From: a virus
Virus record (IMG/VR): IMGVR_UViG_3300042868_003408
Location: 1-21,246 of that record
Strand: one strand, 5' to 3'
Length of the DNA stretch: 21,246 bases
Shown: positions 5,181 to 21,246 of the stretch, one piece after another
Position numbering within the stretch: the first letter of the stretch is position 1
How the letters are laid out: every line of letters starts with the position of its first letter
Position numbers and translations under genes: made by a program
Notes under the pieces: model-generated
Database searches by the model: none
Told to the model about the DNA's origin: nothing
Seen by the model: only the letters and a program-made list of their open reading frames with translations

Positions 5181-5795
5181 ATGAACCACATCAAGACGGT
5201 CAAACGTTTTGTCGCTGGAAGTCATAAGTTCTTTGACATCTATGAATGCACTGTAGATGAAGTAGATACTTATACTTCCAGTACTGGCAAGGCAATGGTT
5301 AAAGTATCCATTGAAGGTAAAGAGTATAATGGTCTCCATAACAAATGGGTCTATGAATACTTATGCGCCAACGAAGGACAGCCATCCTTTGTAGTCTTCT
5401 GGAAAGCCCCTAAGGGTGATCCTATGGTAGCCTACGTTAAAGAGATATGGCAAAATCACATTGATGGTACTCCACAAGAGACTGTCTATTTAGCAGACGA
5501 TAGTGAAGCTTACAAACAAGAAGGTGAATCCTTCCTGTACATGTGGGTTAATAAAGATACCGATAAGAAATACATCGGTAAACACAGAGGTAAACCTGAT
5601 GATGGATATGTATGCTCATCTGAAAGCTTTATGACTGAGTACAATGAGTGTCCATCAAGGTTTATACGAACAGTATTAGCCTATGGTAGTGATCAAGAAA
5701 TGCTTGAGCTTGAAACTATTATGCTTCTGCAGTTAAAAACCCGTATGAGTCCTCTGTACTACAATCTTTCAAACAATCTTAATAAGGAAAACTGA
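5181..5795 (+). CDS. GIY-YIG endonuclease-like protein with unknown N-terminal domain
   Basis: It starts directly after the previous stop codon. Residues 1-110 form an unrecognised domain (beta-rich, with TSSTGKAMVKVSIEGKEYN). From 118 a GIY-YIG-type domain follows: FLYMWVNKDTDKKYIGKHRG (118-137), DGYVCSSESF (141-150), R163 in FIRTVLAYG, and a helix with E176 and E178 before LLQLKTRMSPLYYNLS. This is the spacing of the nuclease fold: YIG motif, Arg, then catalytic Glu. Such free-standing phage proteins are often mobile homing endonucleases of the Seg type. The first tyrosine motif is LYMW instead of GIY, so activity is uncertain. It ends in a TGATG overlap. Confidence 0.68.
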   Translation: MNHIKTVKRFVAGSHKFFDIYECTVDEVDTYTSSTGKAMVKVSIEGKEYNGLHNKWVYEYLCANEGQPSFVVFWKAPKGDPMVAYVKEIWQNHIDGTPQETVYLADDSEAYKQEGESFLYMWVNKDTDKKYIGKHRGKPDDGYVCSSESFMTEYNECPSRFIRTVLAYGSDQEMLELETIMLLQLKTRMSPLYYNLSNNLNKEN

Positions 5796-6264: not shown

Positions 6265-6283
6265 AGACGGTACCTTATAGATA
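6265..6283 (+). promoter_or_regulatory. candidate phage RNA polymerase promoter, site 1
   Basis: AGACGGTACCTTATAGATA lies in the gap between 6249 and 6298. It matches the consensus of three intergenic sites (AGACGGTACCTAATAGATA) at 18 of 19 positions. The layout, a GC-containing block followed by TATA and a G, resembles the -4 to +1 part of T7-family promoters. Transcription would begin near 6280, 18 bases before the next ATG. Confidence 0.55.
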
Positions 6284-12891: not shown

Positions 12892-15093
12892 ATGAATCCA
12901 TTAAATTATCTTACTGAACGTGTATCGAAGGTTGTCCCCAACTCAGATAAGATCTACAATGAGGGTGCTCGCCTTCTAGCACACTATCCAACATGGGAGT
13001 ACGAACTTGAAAGGTTTATTAACGAGTCGTGGGATACTTTACTTCGCTACTGTATCCGAAATAAGAATGCAACACATTCTGCCTCTGTTAAACTCACTTT
13101 CGCATCTGACCTTATCGGAAAGCGAATTGCTAGAGCTATCGGAGCTGATGAGACAGACATCAAAACAACTCTATCTCTTGGAGACTTACTGCTCGAAACT
13201 TTCCTCCAAGACGGACTGATTGATATCTTCAGAGAGTATGCTGGATACAAGGCTCCTTATATGGTACGCATTGTTAATCAAGCAGATGAAATTAAACCAA
13301 CACTGATTGGTACTTCATTTGAACCTCTGTTACCTATTGCTGGGCTATACAGTCCACTAACCAAAGAACCTTTTATTAAAGGCTGGACTAACTCTAAGTT
13401 GTTCCATGAAAACCTAAATAAAACCTTTGTTAACTCCCTTGAAACTCTTCGTCAACAACCATGGCAACTTAACCTGCCTGTGTTAAGTGCTATGCAAGCA
13501 CAAAAGCCTAAGGAAATCTTAGAGTTAGTTGATGAAGATGGTGTCATCAGGGAATACAACATTCACCATGAGAACCTAGACTTACCTAAGAACTTGTTCC
13601 ATACAGACAAGACTAAATTTCTTGGTAAGAAAGATCCCAAGCTACAGCGTATGATGAGTAAGTACTTCGAGTACACTCAGGTACTTAAGAAGGCTGAGAT
13701 GATTGGCGACAGAACATTCTATCAGGAAGTCTCTTGTGACTACCGTGGCAGAGTTTACTATGCAGAATCATTCTTAGAGTTTCAAGGTAGTGACTTGGCT
13801 CGTAGCCTGTTCTTGTTTGCTAATAAGAAGAAGGTTACTGAACGTGGCTTATTCTGGATCAAGGTGCATACAGCAGCTTGCTTTAATAAGTCGTTTATTA
13901 TTGGTAACATCCCAAGCTACTTTACCACAGACTACAAAGCTTACTTAACTGAAGAAGGTCTTGATACTATATCTGTGGATAAGATGACACTGGAAGATCG
14001 AGTTGCATGGGTAGATAACAACATAGAGTTTATCTATCAGACTGCCCGTACTAAACATATTCATCCTGACGCTGAGAAAGCCTATAGCTTCTTAGCTTGT
14101 TGTAATGAATTGTTAGGTTACAAAAGATCTGTCATGGAGGGTAAACCCTTTATGTCTGGTCTTCCTATACCTATCGATGGTAGTAATAACGGTTGGCAAC
14201 ACTTAGCGGCTATGTCTAAGGACAAACAAGCTGGTACACTAGTGTCACTTGTTCCTACACCTATCCAGAAAGACTTCTACGTAGCAGTAGCCAAAGAACT
14301 TATTAGCATTATGCCTGAGTACTTTGAAGCTAAAGATATGCCTATGAAACATATCCGTAAGGGTATAGCTAAACGAGGCTCAATGACTCGTGCTTACAGT
14401 GCAGGTAAACTTCGTATCGCAAAGAATATGTACGATGACTGTCACGTAGAAGGCTATACTGTTAAATATAACATTACTGAAAATGAATGTGATATACTAG
14501 CAGGTAACTTAATCAAGGCTATTAACACTGTCTGTGCAGGACCACTCAAGACAACCAAGTATTTACAGAAGATTGCAGAACATGAACTTAACTCAGGAAG
14601 AAATCAACTTTCGTGGACAACCCCATCAGGGTTCCCAGTGGTATACAAGGCTTACTTACAGCATGAACGGAAACAAAGAGGAACTATCAAAGGTATCCAA
14701 GGAAATAAAGACGGACGGGTCATGCACGTTATTAAGGTTGACGTACTCAATAAAGAAACTGGTGAACGTGTTCCTTGCAGACGTTCCTTTGCTTCTGGTA
14801 TCAGCCCTAACGTTGTTCACTCATATGATGCTGCTCACATGGCAAATACTATCGTCAGCTTTAACGGCTCTTTTGGAGCAGTCCATGATAGCTTTAGTAC
14901 ACATGCGGATGAAGTTGATTTCCTTCAAGAAGTAACTAAGATGACCTTCATTGCACAGTATGATGTAGAAAACTTCTTTGATATCATACAAGATACTCTT
15001 ATGAATAATAAGAATAACTTCACCTTCAACCAACCTGAGCTGGGTAACCTAGTGCTCAGTGAGGTTATGGAATCTAAATACTTCTTCTGCTAG
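12892..15093 (+). CDS. single-subunit DNA-directed RNA polymerase, T7-like
   Basis: A T7-family polymerase that transcribes phage genes from its own promoters. The 733 residues have all key motifs: DYRGR (D283-R287), motif A PIDGSNNG (D429), motif B K494 with Y502 eight residues on (AKRGSMTRAY), and motif C VHDSFST (H665, D666). Spacing between motifs matches T7, but the part before DYRGR is about 138 residues shorter, so the N-terminal promoter-binding and melting domain is reduced. After Y502 comes Ser where T7 has Gly640, and position -4 of motif B is Lys (R489 at -5). The ATG abuts the previous stop and has no good ribosome-binding site, suggesting reinitiation. It ends YFFC, comparable to the aromatic FAFA end of T7. 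Confidence 0.92.
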   Translation: MNPLNYLTERVSKVVPNSDKIYNEGARLLAHYPTWEYELERFINESWDTLLRYCIRNKNATHSASVKLTFASDLIGKRIARAIGADETDIKTTLSLGDLLLETFLQDGLIDIFREYAGYKAPYMVRIVNQADEIKPTLIGTSFEPLLPIAGLYSPLTKEPFIKGWTNSKLFHENLNKTFVNSLETLRQQPWQLNLPVLSAMQAQKPKEILELVDEDGVIREYNIHHENLDLPKNLFHTDKTKFLGKKDPKLQRMMSKYFEYTQVLKKAEMIGDRTFYQEVSCDYRGRVYYAESFLEFQGSDLARSLFLFANKKKVTERGLFWIKVHTAACFNKSFIIGNIPSYFTTDYKAYLTEEGLDTISVDKMTLEDRVAWVDNNIEFIYQTARTKHIHPDAEKAYSFLACCNELLGYKRSVMEGKPFMSGLPIPIDGSNNGWQHLAAMSKDKQAGTLVSLVPTPIQKDFYVAVAKELISIMPEYFEAKDMPMKHIRKGIAKRGSMTRAYSAGKLRIAKNMYDDCHVEGYTVKYNITENECDILAGNLIKAINTVCAGPLKTTKYLQKIAEHELNSGRNQLSWTTPSGFPVVYKAYLQHERKQRGTIKGIQGNKDGRVMHVIKVDVLNKETGERVPCRRSFASGISPNVVHSYDAAHMANTIVSFNGSFGAVHDSFSTHADEVDFLQEVTKMTFIAQYDVENFFDIIQDTLMNNKNNFTFNQPELGNLVLSEVMESKYFFC

Positions 15094-15110
15094 ACGGTAC
15101 CTAATACCAG
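15092..15110 (+). promoter_or_regulatory. candidate phage RNA polymerase promoter, site 2
   Basis: AGACGGTACCTAATACCAG starts at the end of the RNA polymerase gene and lies in a 41-base gap before the ribonucleotide reductase gene. It shares the first 15 bases with the consensus of the three intergenic sites, then diverges. Initiation would be near 15107, 28 bases before the ATG. Confidence 0.5.
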
Positions 15111-17012: not shown

Positions 17013-17263
17013 AGCTACTTAAATTTTCTGCAGCATGGTGCCAACCATGTAAGCAATTAGATAAAGTTCTTAAAGAAGCTTTACCTGAATACCCTGAGAT
17101 TGAATTAATTAATATGCCTATCGAGGATAATAAAGATTCAGTATCATACTACGGTATTCGTTCAGTACCTACAATGATTATTGTAGACAGTAATGATCAG
17201 GTATTACGTACATCAGTAGGATTTGATGCTAATAAGGTAAAACCTTTCTTAGCAGGTACCTAA
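17009..17263 (+). CDS. thioredoxin-like protein
   Basis: Provides electrons, most likely to the ribonucleotide reductase. The 84 residues carry WCQPC (10-14), a variant of the usual WCGPC, and the cis-proline SVPT (P54). It starts at TTG 17009 with GGAGG nine bases upstream, overlapping the reductase stop codon as TTGA. It is shorter than E. coli thioredoxin (108), keeping the core fold without the long N-terminal segment. It could also serve as polymerase processivity factor, as host thioredoxin does for T7, but the coupling points to the reductase. Confidence 0.88.
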   Translation: MKLLKFSAAWCQPCKQLDKVLKEALPEYPEIELINMPIEDNKDSVSYYGIRSVPTMIIVDSNDQVLRTSVGFDANKVKPFLAGT

Positions 17264-17269
17264 TAGATA
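17251..17269 (+). promoter_or_regulatory. candidate phage RNA polymerase promoter, site 3
   Basis: AGCAGGTACCTAATAGATA overlaps the end of the thioredoxin gene and stops two bases before the first tRNA. It matches the three-site consensus at 17 of 19 positions. Initiation near 17266 would place the tRNA five bases into the transcript. Confidence 0.5.
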
Positions 17270-17270
17270 A

Positions 17271-17345
17271 AGCGGGGTAGCTCAGTAGAAGAGCGATGGA
17301 CTCATAATCCATAGGTCAGGGGTGCGACTCCCTTCCCCGCAACCA
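17271..17345 (+). tRNA. tRNA with CAT anticodon (Met or Ile2)
   Basis: The cloverleaf is complete: acceptor arm GCGGGG/CCCCGC (17272-17277 with 17335-17340) plus an A1-A72 mismatch, D stem GCTC/GAGC, anticodon stem ATGGA/TCCAT with loop CTCATAA (anticodon CAT, 17303-17305), T stem AGGGG/CCCTT, and an encoded CCA at 17343-17345. It lacks the three G-C pairs of initiator tRNA, so it is elongator Met or an Ile tRNA modified to read AUA. The D loop AGTAGAA has A at position 18 and the T loop TGCGACT has G at position 55, so the usual G18-psi55 contact is absent. Confidence 0.85.
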
Positions 17346-18007: not shown

Positions 18008-18203
18008 AGGTAGTAGTAGACGTAGAGAGAATGAACAGCTGGTAAGAGACAACTGGGATGCTATATTTGGTATTAAAAAGAACCCTGAGACTCTACAGGA
18101 ACATGTCTGGAATGATAAGGTAAAAGCATATCAGTCAGATATTGAGAAGAAATTAATTAAAGGAAATGAATATGGCAATGACACCACCTCAACCCAAAAG
18201 TAA
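18000..18203 (+). CDS. hypothetical protein of the MGKGSSRR type, 67 aa
   Basis: The ATG at 18000 has AAAGG five bases upstream and gives the start MGKGSSRRRENEQLVRDNWD, a form common in short phage proteins of unknown function. The earlier in-frame ATG at 17955 lies inside the previous gene. A DNWDAIFG block follows, then a Lys-rich helix. No known activity. It overlaps the Dps-like gene at its 3' end. Confidence 0.6.
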   Translation: MGKGSSRRRENEQLVRDNWDAIFGIKKNPETLQEHVWNDKVKAYQSDIEKKLIKGNEYGNDTTSTQK

Positions 18204-18648
18204 TAATTTGATTACAATGCTTACCCAGCTTTATGCTGATAACTTTGTGACATACTACAAGTCTCATGGATACCACTTCAATGTTGAAGGTCCAATGTTT
18301 GCTCAAGACCATGCACTGCTTGAAGAGATCTATGACTTTTTGTGGGCACAACATGATATGCTTGGTGAACAGATCCGTCAGATGGACAAGGGAGTACCCT
18401 GCTCTCTTAAAGAAGTTCTTAGTATGACTAATATTACAGAATGTGATAGTGCTAAAAAACCAAGTAAAGAAATGTTTACATGGTTGAATCAAGACTTTGA
18501 TGATTTGGTTGATCATGCTCAAAAATTGTATGATGAAGCTGACATGCAATGTTATGGTGGTTTGGCCACACTTGTTGGTGATTATATTAAAGACTTGTCC
18601 AAGCTTAACTGGAAAGTCAAAGCAACACTTGGAAAGAGTTTTAAATGA
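18172..18648 (+). CDS. Dps-type ferritin-like protein
   Basis: Dps proteins form 12-subunit shells that store iron, consume peroxide and may coat DNA. From ATG 18172 (AAGGA seven bases upstream) the 158 residues have YHFNVEGPMF (34-43), H47, E51, D62 and E66. The spacing of H35, H47, E51, D62 and E66 (12, 4, 11, 4) is identical to the ferroxidase site of Listeria Dps (H31, H43, D47, D58, E62), except for Glu in place of D47. KGVPCSLKEVL follows as in the family. The Lys-rich DNA-binding N-tail of E. coli Dps is absent. It is coupled by ATGA to the next gene. Known in some bacteria, uncommon in phages. Confidence 0.8.
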   Translation: MAMTPPQPKSNNLITMLTQLYADNFVTYYKSHGYHFNVEGPMFAQDHALLEEIYDFLWAQHDMLGEQIRQMDKGVPCSLKEVLSMTNITECDSAKKPSKEMFTWLNQDFDDLVDHAQKLYDEADMQCYGGLATLVGDYIKDLSKLNWKVKATLGKSFK

Positions 18649-18900: not shown

Positions 18901-18945
18901 AAAAAAAATAACCCCTACTAGGATAATTCCTAATAGGGGTTTTTT
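18901..18945. terminator. bidirectional rho-independent terminator between convergent genes
   Basis: The stem AACCCCTACTAGG (18910-18922) pairs with CCTAATAGGGGTT (18929-18941) with one mismatch and a six-base loop ATAATT. A run of A lies to the left (18901-18908) and a run of T to the right (18940-18945), so each strand reads as hairpin plus U-run. It serves the plus-strand array and the minus-strand gene ending at 18948. Confidence 0.85.
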
Positions 18946-18947
18946 AT

Positions 18948-21245
18948 TTATAGATCATCCTTACTTGCGTAGGAATTTTCTAATCCAATTATATCTTCAA
19001 ATTTAATTTCATTTGATTTCTTATTTTTCTTATTATTACGTTCAGCAACGGCAGAACTATAACGGTTGCTATCATTACTAACATCACCTTTATATCTACT
19101 AGCACCACCTGTAGGTGTCATCTGACCAATACCATGTGGTTGAGCTGCTTTCATAAGTACCTTAGCTGTCTCTTCAACTTTAGAAGGGAATTCTCTTAGC
19201 CAACGGGTGTATGGATACATCTGATGTTCAGATACACCAGGAACTAGACCAAGAGTTTTCTTAGCAAGCATTGCAAGTTGTTTAAATTGTTCAGCGCTAA
19301 CAGCAATGTCTGCTCTAATAGCTTCGCCTGAATGAGTTTCATTACCTGAAATTGAGAATGGAGGTTTCCAACCAAATGATTTGGCTTGAGAAAGAACTTT
19401 ATTAGCATCTGCTACTTTTTTATTCCATTTAATTTCATCATTACCACTACGTCTTAAAAAAAATTCTTTATACGAAGAGCCTTCAGAATATTTATTATGA
19501 ATCTCATCAAAGAAAGCCCCAAGAGATGGGTAATCTCCATTATCACCTATACCTACAATACCAGCTTTTTCAGCTTGTCTAAAGGTATGCTTTTCAGCTG
19601 TGTTCCAAGCTGAATCTATATTACCAGCAAATTTTGCAATAGCAGGTATAGCTGCAGGAATCGCATAATTATTATAAGCATTACGATAAATTAAAGAACC
19701 TGATGCAGTAGAAATAATGGAGTCGTGAACCCAAGAAATTGGTTTAGGTAACTCATTTCTGTTTGAATTAACAAACATAGTAGTTAGCTTAACTAAATCA
19801 CCGTCAGCAGATTGAATAGGCATAACATTAAGTAGACGACCTTGAGCAGAACCAATAGGGTTATCAAAGAAATCCCATTGTTGGGTACGCTTGTTCCAGT
19901 ATCGCTGCAAACCTTTAGTAGCATTAGGATCATAGCCACGCATTGTTTGTTCAATCTCAATCTGTTTACCTTCAAGAGTATTATAAACACTTTGTGCAAT
20001 GGCTTTACGTTTAAGAATAATCTTTTCACCGTCAACTTGTTCTTGAATTAAAACATCACTATCTCCAGCATACTTAGGCATAACACCAGGAGTAGAAAAG
20101 ATTTGGGTATCACCTGTAATACCAGCAAATGTAGGAACAGCACCAAGTATAGACATATATCTACCAACAGACTTCATCTGTGTACTAAATCCACCATCAA
20201 GAATATCTCTTAACGTTGATTCAACAGCATTGTTAAGTAATTCTTGTGGATCTGCTTTTTCCCCGTCATAAGCAGGTCCAATATACTTAGCATATTCTTC
20301 TGCAACTTGTTCTGTTAAAAAGTCCTCAACATGAGAGCTAAACATACTAGCATCTTTACCATATGATGCTTGCATAAGAGGTGATTTAAGAAGCATACTA
20401 GCTACCTTAGCTTTGCCATGCTTATCAATAATAGCTTTAAAAAATTCTTTCCAACCATTTCTAAATTGATCGCTATCATCTGGGAGTAACTCATCAATTT
20501 TGCTATGCAAAGAACTCAAAGCAAATGTACGTAAGTCTTCCATACTAGGATTAAATGTTCCTAGCTGAATAGCTTGGGGTGTGTTACCTGAAAACAAGGC
20601 TTGAAGGAAAATACCATTCTGGTTACCGTCATCAAATGTTAAATGAGATATCTTATGGTTTTGTGATTTCATTTGCTTATTAGGATTATTAAATTTATTT
20701 TGTAATTCAAAAAAATCATCCCATAAGTTTTTATTACCCATAGATTCACCACGTTCCATACCTGCTAATAATTGTTTAATATTATCAGAAGCACTTTGTG
20801 GATCACTCATAAAGGCATTATACTCTTTTCCTACTTCAGCAAGCCTAGCCCCAATCTGAGGAGTATACATACTTAAAATATCAGCCATACCTGTTTTAAT
20901 TATTTGCGGGTTACCACCTTTAATAGCTGTCTCATAATTAATAACAGCGTTAATCATCATACCAATAGCTGCAAGATCGGTTGGGGGTAATGCTTTTAAA
21001 GCTTTGTTAATCTCTTGACCAGATTTTTTACCAAACAAAATACGATTACCAACTTCTTTAAGGTAGTCTACCTTTGTTTTGTCAAACAAATGTTCAGCTG
21101 TAACTACGTCTTGAGCACCAAAGTTCATCATATCACGAACAACATTCTTTGATGACATATAATCAGTACCACCAGAGGCAGGAAAGAAACGTTGGTTAGC
21201 AACTGAGTGCATCCAAGCAGAGAACCTAAGCCCAGGAAGCTTTTG
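18948..21245 (-). CDS. putative virion RNA polymerase (N4 vRNAP-like), C-terminal part, 5' end outside window
   Basis: The frame is open to the right edge, eleven residues before the ATG at 21212, so the visible 765 residues are the C-terminal part of a larger protein. Counting from that ATG, single-subunit RNA polymerase motifs appear in order: motif A FDDGNQNGIFLQA (D195), motif B KSPLMQASYG (K276, Y284), and motif C SWVHDSI (H496, D497). D195-G-N-Q-N-G matches T7 D537-G-S-C-S-G, K276 to Y284 is eight residues as in T7 (K631, Y639), and Y284-D497 is 213 residues (T7 173, N4 273). HSVANQR (2-8) is a weak candidate for the TxxGR element. Serine stands at 272, where T7 has R627. N4 vRNAP is a giant protein packaged in the virion and injected to transcribe early genes. 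The strand and position convergent with the replication module fit this. Confidence 0.65.
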   Translation of the reverse strand, partial: QKLPGLRFSAWMHSVANQRFFPASGGTDYMSSKNVVRDMMNFGAQDVVTAEHLFDKTKVDYLKEVGNRILFGKKSGQEINKALKALPPTDLAAIGMMINAVINYETAIKGGNPQIIKTGMADILSMYTPQIGARLAEVGKEYNAFMSDPQSASDNIKQLLAGMERGESMGNKNLWDDFFELQNKFNNPNKQMKSQNHKISHLTFDDGNQNGIFLQALFSGNTPQAIQLGTFNPSMEDLRTFALSSLHSKIDELLPDDSDQFRNGWKEFFKAIIDKHGKAKVASMLLKSPLMQASYGKDASMFSSHVEDFLTEQVAEEYAKYIGPAYDGEKADPQELLNNAVESTLRDILDGGFSTQMKSVGRYMSILGAVPTFAGITGDTQIFSTPGVMPKYAGDSDVLIQEQVDGEKIILKRKAIAQSVYNTLEGKQIEIEQTMRGYDPNATKGLQRYWNKRTQQWDFFDNPIGSAQGRLLNVMPIQSADGDLVKLTTMFVNSNRNELPKPISWVHDSIISTASGSLIYRNAYNNYAIPAAIPAIAKFAGNIDSAWNTAEKHTFRQAEKAGIVGIGDNGDYPSLGAFFDEIHNKYSEGSSYKEFFLRRSGNDEIKWNKKVADANKVLSQAKSFGWKPPFSISGNETHSGEAIRADIAVSAEQFKQLAMLAKKTLGLVPGVSEHQMYPYTRWLREFPSKVEETAKVLMKAAQPHGIGQMTPTGGASRYKGDVSNDSNRYSSAVAERNNKKNKKSNEIKFEDIIGLENSYASKDDL

Positions 21246-21246
21246 A

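Follow-up and report, generated by a model that had tools for sequence, protein, structure and literature searches.

A compact, putative virion-type RNA polymerase gene opposite the replication genes in aquatic phages that also carry a T7-like RNA polymerase

The locus analysed here raises the question of what a phage that already carries a T7-like single-chain RNA polymerase could do with the product of a second long gene, located on the opposite strand and running off the end of the record. The window, i.e., the whole stretch of DNA analysed, comprises 21,246 bases and is the entire virus record; because the frame is open to its edge, the 5′ part of this gene is missing. A preliminary description, made from the sequence alone, had read it as a second, divergent single-subunit RNA polymerase (RNAP) of the N4 virion type. 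In our analysis, the most likely product is a compact single-subunit DNA-dependent RNAP that would be packaged, injected and used for transcribing the first phage genes, leading to the T7-like RNAP; that it synthesizes RNA, enters the virion, is injected and transcribes early genes, and that these events follow in this order, is inferred. The two polymerase genes are:

12892..15093, plus strand: T7-like single-chain RNA polymerase, 733 aa (PF00940, E 1.8e-55; phrog_414, E 1.4e-98)
18948..21246, minus strand: C-terminal 765 codons and stop of the putative virion-type single-subunit RNA polymerase gene (open frame to the window edge, homologues, predicted fold)

In regard to the residues involved, numbering starts with the first codon in the window, adding 11 to the numbers of the preliminary description, which had counted 754 aa from an internal ATG at 21212. 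The sites are placed as follows:

21135..21197, minus strand: R motif (TxxGR-like), N17-Q-R19 ... S-K-N-V-V-R37 (R19 invariant, R37 nearly so; profile alignments)
20613..20630, minus strand: motif A, D206-G-N-Q-N-G (Asp invariant in three clades; profile alignment)
20358..20387, minus strand: motif B, K287-SPLMQAS-Y295-G, corresponding to T7 K631/Y639 and N4 K670/Y678 (Tyr invariant)
19719..19727, minus strand: motif C, H507-D508-S (nearly invariant; in a beta-hairpin turn of the model)

The claim that motifs A, B and C are present in order held (D206, K287/Y295 and H507-D508), and a fourth element close to the truncated end, R19, had been missed. Motif spacings had been described as close to those of T7 and N4, and the K-to-Y spacing of 8 in motif B was confirmed to equal that of N4 K670-Y678 when N4 gp50 was aligned. 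It had also been expected that a routine search could leave the gene unnamed, which held as well: the Pfam search returned no family, the PF00940 profile of Autographiviridae-type RNA polymerases included, the PDB sequence search gave no match, and PHROGs gave one 27-residue match only, of unknown function (E 3e-4). Likewise, tblastn against 50,697 phage records found no match. The full gene, which the preliminary description had wished to see outside the window, cannot be followed there since the record ends, and its extent is represented by complete relatives of 1,135-1,393 aa. With the catalytic Arg, two Asp and Tyr lying in order at the four motif sites, the criterion for the single-subunit RNA polymerase superfamily is met, as shown computationally. 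D206 is predicted to be the first metal ligand, matching T7 D537 and N4 D559, and D508 is predicted to be the second, matching T7 D812 and N4 D951.

Homologue-bearing contigs were identified in IMG/VR by using either the neighbouring T7-like polymerase or a DNA pattern for motif A (DDGNQNG) as the query. Five contigs returned by the DNA pattern (G020, G022, G023, G026 and G028) lack a homologue and apparently represent chance occurrences. Among 43 loci at which the sequence continues for 4.5 kb or more past the T7-like RNAP gene, a homologue was present on the opposite strand in 39, and the flank extends just 5.0-5.5 kb at the four loci without one. The cultured Roseobacter phage CRP-7 (MK613349, 58 kb) holds a homologue in gp33, a protein of 1,235 aa annotated as ‘hypothetical protein’ (HMM E 8e-29). 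Searching a collection of bacterial and archaeal genomes returned no relative, so neither a host link nor a provirus could be obtained.

The homologues form three clades, namely A, which includes the window, B, which includes CRP-7, and C. Identity between clades is 14-20% among 33 homologues (14-19% for the window protein against clades B and C), and the 33-sequence alignment has just six invariant residues: R19, G139, G166, D206, R239 and Y295. Nearly invariant residues include D508, Q478, N525 and N526. The surroundings of motif A vary (DGNQNG, DASQSN, DMNSAG) around a constant Asp, motif C occurs as HDS, HDA or FDN, and the Lys of motif B is replaced by Arg in clade B, so that CRP-7 gp33 reads DARQSN in motif A and has Arg for Lys in motif B. 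In an unguided profile alignment with T7-like RNAPs, T7 R425, D537, Y639 and H811-D812 fall on the four sites of the family. Since the invariant columns and the unguided alignment coincide with the catalytic sites, the motifs are not due to chance. The Lys-to-Arg replacement in clade B and the variable context of motif A, together with the position of the gene among ejection-type proteins, could favour an RNAP descendant without catalytic activity, whose only remaining role is in ejection or structure. We regard this as very unlikely, because the few residues that all clades retain include those with a predicted catalytic role (Arg, both Asp and Tyr), and a loss of catalysis predicts the opposite.

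The reading as a single-subunit RNAP is further supported by structure prediction. AlphaFold, run with the family alignment, modelled the window fragment with a pLDDT of 84.7 and a pTM of 0.84, and 1,200 residues of a relative, L149, with a pLDDT of 85.7 and a pTM of 0.85. In the model of the window fragment, a strand carries motif A, motif B sits where a helix ends, and the turn of a beta hairpin holds motif C. T7 RNAP has the same arrangement of its motifs A, B and C. In Foldseek, the 50 top-ranked PDB matches for each model were all yeast or human mitochondrial RNAP, T7 RNAP or N4 virion RNAP (vRNAP), with best E-values of 1.4e-7 for the window fragment and 2.3e-13 for L149, and with mitochondrial and T7 RNAPs ranking ahead of N4. 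The viral library likewise returned phage RNA polymerases, N4-type vRNAPs included. TM-scores were modest (0.22-0.56 depending on the target), hence the structural match has to be considered remote and multidomain. A confident match to an unrelated fold, named beforehand as a result that would refute the polymerase reading, was not seen in the top 50 of either model. A right-hand polymerase fold with a single-subunit RNAP active site is thus established computationally, as a model prediction without distances between palm residues. Alternatively, the protein could be no polymerase at all, being an unrelated ejection, lytic or structural protein with chance motifs, as might be suspected from the lack of Pfam and PDB sequence matches and from a PHROG match of only 27 residues. 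This alternative is all but excluded: chance motifs are rejected by the invariant columns and the profile alignment at the catalytic sites, and an ejection or lytic fold is rejected by the Foldseek matches of both models, which fall only on single-subunit RNAPs.

The lineage to which this polymerase belongs is less clear. Against a Schitoviridae vRNAP profile built from 14 vRNAP stretches, hhalign gave a probability of 69.7% (E 4.2e-5) for the whole family and 86.2% (E 4.9e-6) for clade C, compared with E-values of 0.16-0.99 for reversed or column-shuffled controls. In this alignment, N4 R424 and D559 fall on the Arg and Asp of the family; R19 is thus matched with T7 R425 and N4 R424 in the respective profile alignments. 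A broad T7-like profile gave 17% (E 1.5e-3), the profile comparison with the T7-like RNAPs of the same phages gave no match, hhalign against single sequences was uninformative, and a single-sequence search of the minus-strand polymerase against N4 vRNAP found nothing. Ungapped (anchored) motif scores placed the family about equally far from the N4 and T7 groups, which could not be separated, and profiles restricted to the NTD carried a weak N4 signal in clade C only. The sequence link to Schitoviridae vRNAP is therefore weak to moderate at these hhalign probabilities. We interpret the family as a lineage of its own that may be closest to N4 vRNAP, with its branching unresolved. In a phmmer search, limited to single-sequence sensitivity and to N4 ORFs from base 20,500 onwards, five genomes of the clade gave no convincing match; the sole match was marginal and short (336 bases, E 1.5e-4). 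The criterion of the seven hallmark genes of Schitoviridae (capsid, portal, terminases, tail, DNA polymerase, vRNAP) was not met in that search.

Compared with known systems, the protein shares with N4 gp50 and the Schitoviridae vRNAPs the R, motif A, motif B and motif C sites in the same order, the virtual absence of cysteine and ejection-type neighbours, and its gene, like that of gp50, is the final one of the late strand and converges with the replication genes. On the other hand, gp50 comprises 3,500 aa with large N- and C-terminal domains and the present family 1,135-1,393 aa, about the size of the N4 mini-vRNAP core (1,106 aa), so that the protein resembles a natural ‘mini-vRNAP’. The partner polymerase also differs, being the two-chain RNAPII in N4 and a single T7-like chain here, and the hairpin promoters of N4 have no detected counterpart in this phage group. 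T7 and mitochondrial RNAPs (PF00940) resemble the family in fold and catalytic sites and provide the top Foldseek matches, yet the family has no PF00940 match, its gene lies in the late block and its proteins are nearly free of cysteine.

The position of the gene is shown by CRP-7 and ten contigs of 58-64 kb, in which replication genes occupy mainly one strand and late genes mainly the other, the two blocks converging at the minus-strand polymerase gene, the last of the late strand. In the window, the following structure separates the blocks:

18910..18941, unstranded: terminator-like hairpin between the converging gene blocks, 14 pairs with flanking A and T runs (read from the sequence)

Cysteines number 0 in the window fragment, 0-3 in its relatives and 10 in the T7-like RNAP; the 14 Schitoviridae vRNAP stretches have none. 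The neighbours of CRP-7 gp33 are cysteine-free proteins of 1,368 and 1,223 aa, the latter being gp35 (L143 25699-29367), annotated as ‘hypothetical protein’, which starts with a lysozyme-like domain (PF16754, E 3.6e-6) and may thus be an ejection protein that cuts the cell wall in the manner of T7 gp16. Absence of cysteine marks passage through the virion and not polymerase function, as other ejection proteins also lack it.

Apart from the polymerase question, the window contains a ferritin/Dps-like gene (18166-18648; PF00210, E 4.6e-10; phrog_3636 ‘DNA binding protein’, E 6e-26), which a podophage-like replication block does not usually contain, and a possible homing endonuclease gene (5181-5795; phrog_314, E 8e-9). 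ARAGORN called a tRNA-Met (CAT) at 17271-17345, and a second tRNA-like stretch, not called by ARAGORN, follows it before 17478. Ribonucleotide reductase is encoded by one plus-strand gene in the window; in CRP-7 its annotation lies on the late strand and consists of two parts separated by a further ORF (gp44-gp46, L143 35552-38170), a split that might represent an intron or an insertion.

Furthermore, a scan for repeats revealed a T7-type promoter-like sequence, ctag(t/c)CGGTACCTAATAggga with the variant GTCCCCTAATAG, present in 4-10 copies per contig (at most one mismatch) in ten contigs and in three copies in the window:

6268..6279, plus strand: T7-type promoter-like repeat CGGTACCTTATA (one mismatch)
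15095..15106, plus strand: T7-type promoter-like repeat CGGTACCTAATA, directly upstream of the ribonucleotide reductase gene
17254..17265, plus strand: T7-type promoter-like repeat AGGTACCTAATA (one mismatch), directly upstream of tRNA-Met

The repeat lies on both strands in this phage clade (loci L217-L253), was not found in CRP-7, and is the obvious candidate for the promoter used by the 733-aa T7-like polymerase. In eight genomes, a late-strand copy precedes a structural-looking gene of about 510 codons, some 12-16 kb upstream of the minus-strand polymerase gene. The window has 36 sites resembling sigma70 promoters, where 59.5 (sd 6.6) would be expected, and such sites did not exceed expectation in 11 genomes, in a scan that detected the T7 A1-A3 promoters as a control; this is weak evidence, since host promoters may depart from the E. 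coli consensus. N4-type hairpins (stem of at least 6, 3-base loop, the scan being blind to 5-bp stems) were not enriched between genes, no second class of repeated promoter emerged from the search, and reading the divergent regions yielded nothing usable.

These data bear on whether the enzyme is packaged. It could alternatively be an active single-subunit RNAP that is expressed but stays in the cell, acting there in middle or late transcription, considering that there is no evidence of packaging, that T7-like RNAPs normally stay unpackaged and that the protein is without the extra domains of N4 vRNAP. We find this unlikely: the gene ends the late strand beside giant cysteine-free proteins, cysteine is nearly absent from its own product and a T7-type promoter lies on the late strand, all of which suggests that it is made together with the virion proteins, at a stage where the cell would hardly need another polymerase. 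In addition, a T7-like RNAP is already present. Returning to the preferred reading of a packaged enzyme, the minus-strand polymerase would be made late and packaged with two other giant ejection-type proteins, and after injection with the DNA it would transcribe the first phage genes, through which the T7-like polymerase would be expressed. The latter would then act at T7-type promoters on both strands to transcribe middle and late genes, that of the minus-strand polymerase included. Context and promoter data fit, without proving, such a relay from an injected polymerase to the T7-like one, which remains an inference without virion proteomics or activity data.

With respect to the preliminary description, there is strong support for its reading of a second, divergent single-subunit RNAP, coming from residue conservation, from the profile alignment and from the predicted structures, with RNA synthesis itself inferred. 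The N4-type assignment has to be amended to a compact protein, not N4-sized, with a weak-to-moderate N4 sequence link and no detectable gene in common with N4. A virion role remains the inference that best suits the position of the gene, the depletion of cysteine, the ejection-type proteins next to it and the promoters on the late strand, and of the proposed packaged and expressed polymerases, the pairing with the 733-aa T7-like RNAP held and packaging is only inferred.

A packaged single-subunit RNAP has been called unique to Schitoviridae (PMC12633501). Outside that family, a virion RNAP was reported for vB_PunP_Y3 (Poorviridae), described as N4-like-derived with three hallmark proteins kept (PMC11654794), and one was conjectured for StenR_269 from size, helicity and lack of cysteine (PMC10747016). 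In these cases, too, podophages not placed in Schitoviridae have been credited with a virion RNAP, but the present, putative case rests on the active site and fold, in phages without a detectable N4 gene. The CRP-7 paper mentions only the T7-like RNAP (PMC6918029). As far as the open-licence PMC literature searched can tell, a compact vRNAP-like protein paired with a T7-like RNAP in this aquatic group is new, its packaging being inferred. A bolder reading is also possible, in which two single-chain enzymes transcribe the whole genome without the host polymerase, the minimal packaged one using a non-hairpin promoter before the T7-like one takes over, and in which the packaged lineage entered the virion independently of N4.

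A family so far labelled ‘hypothetical’ thereby gains a function, with activity inferred, in an apparently unrelated aquatic group that has a cultured member in CRP-7. The suggested programme is one in which an injected polymerase would switch on the T7-like one. If the protein is indeed packaged, packaging and injection may require no more than the polymerase core, and both would then be separable from the approximately 2,400 further residues of the N4 enzyme.
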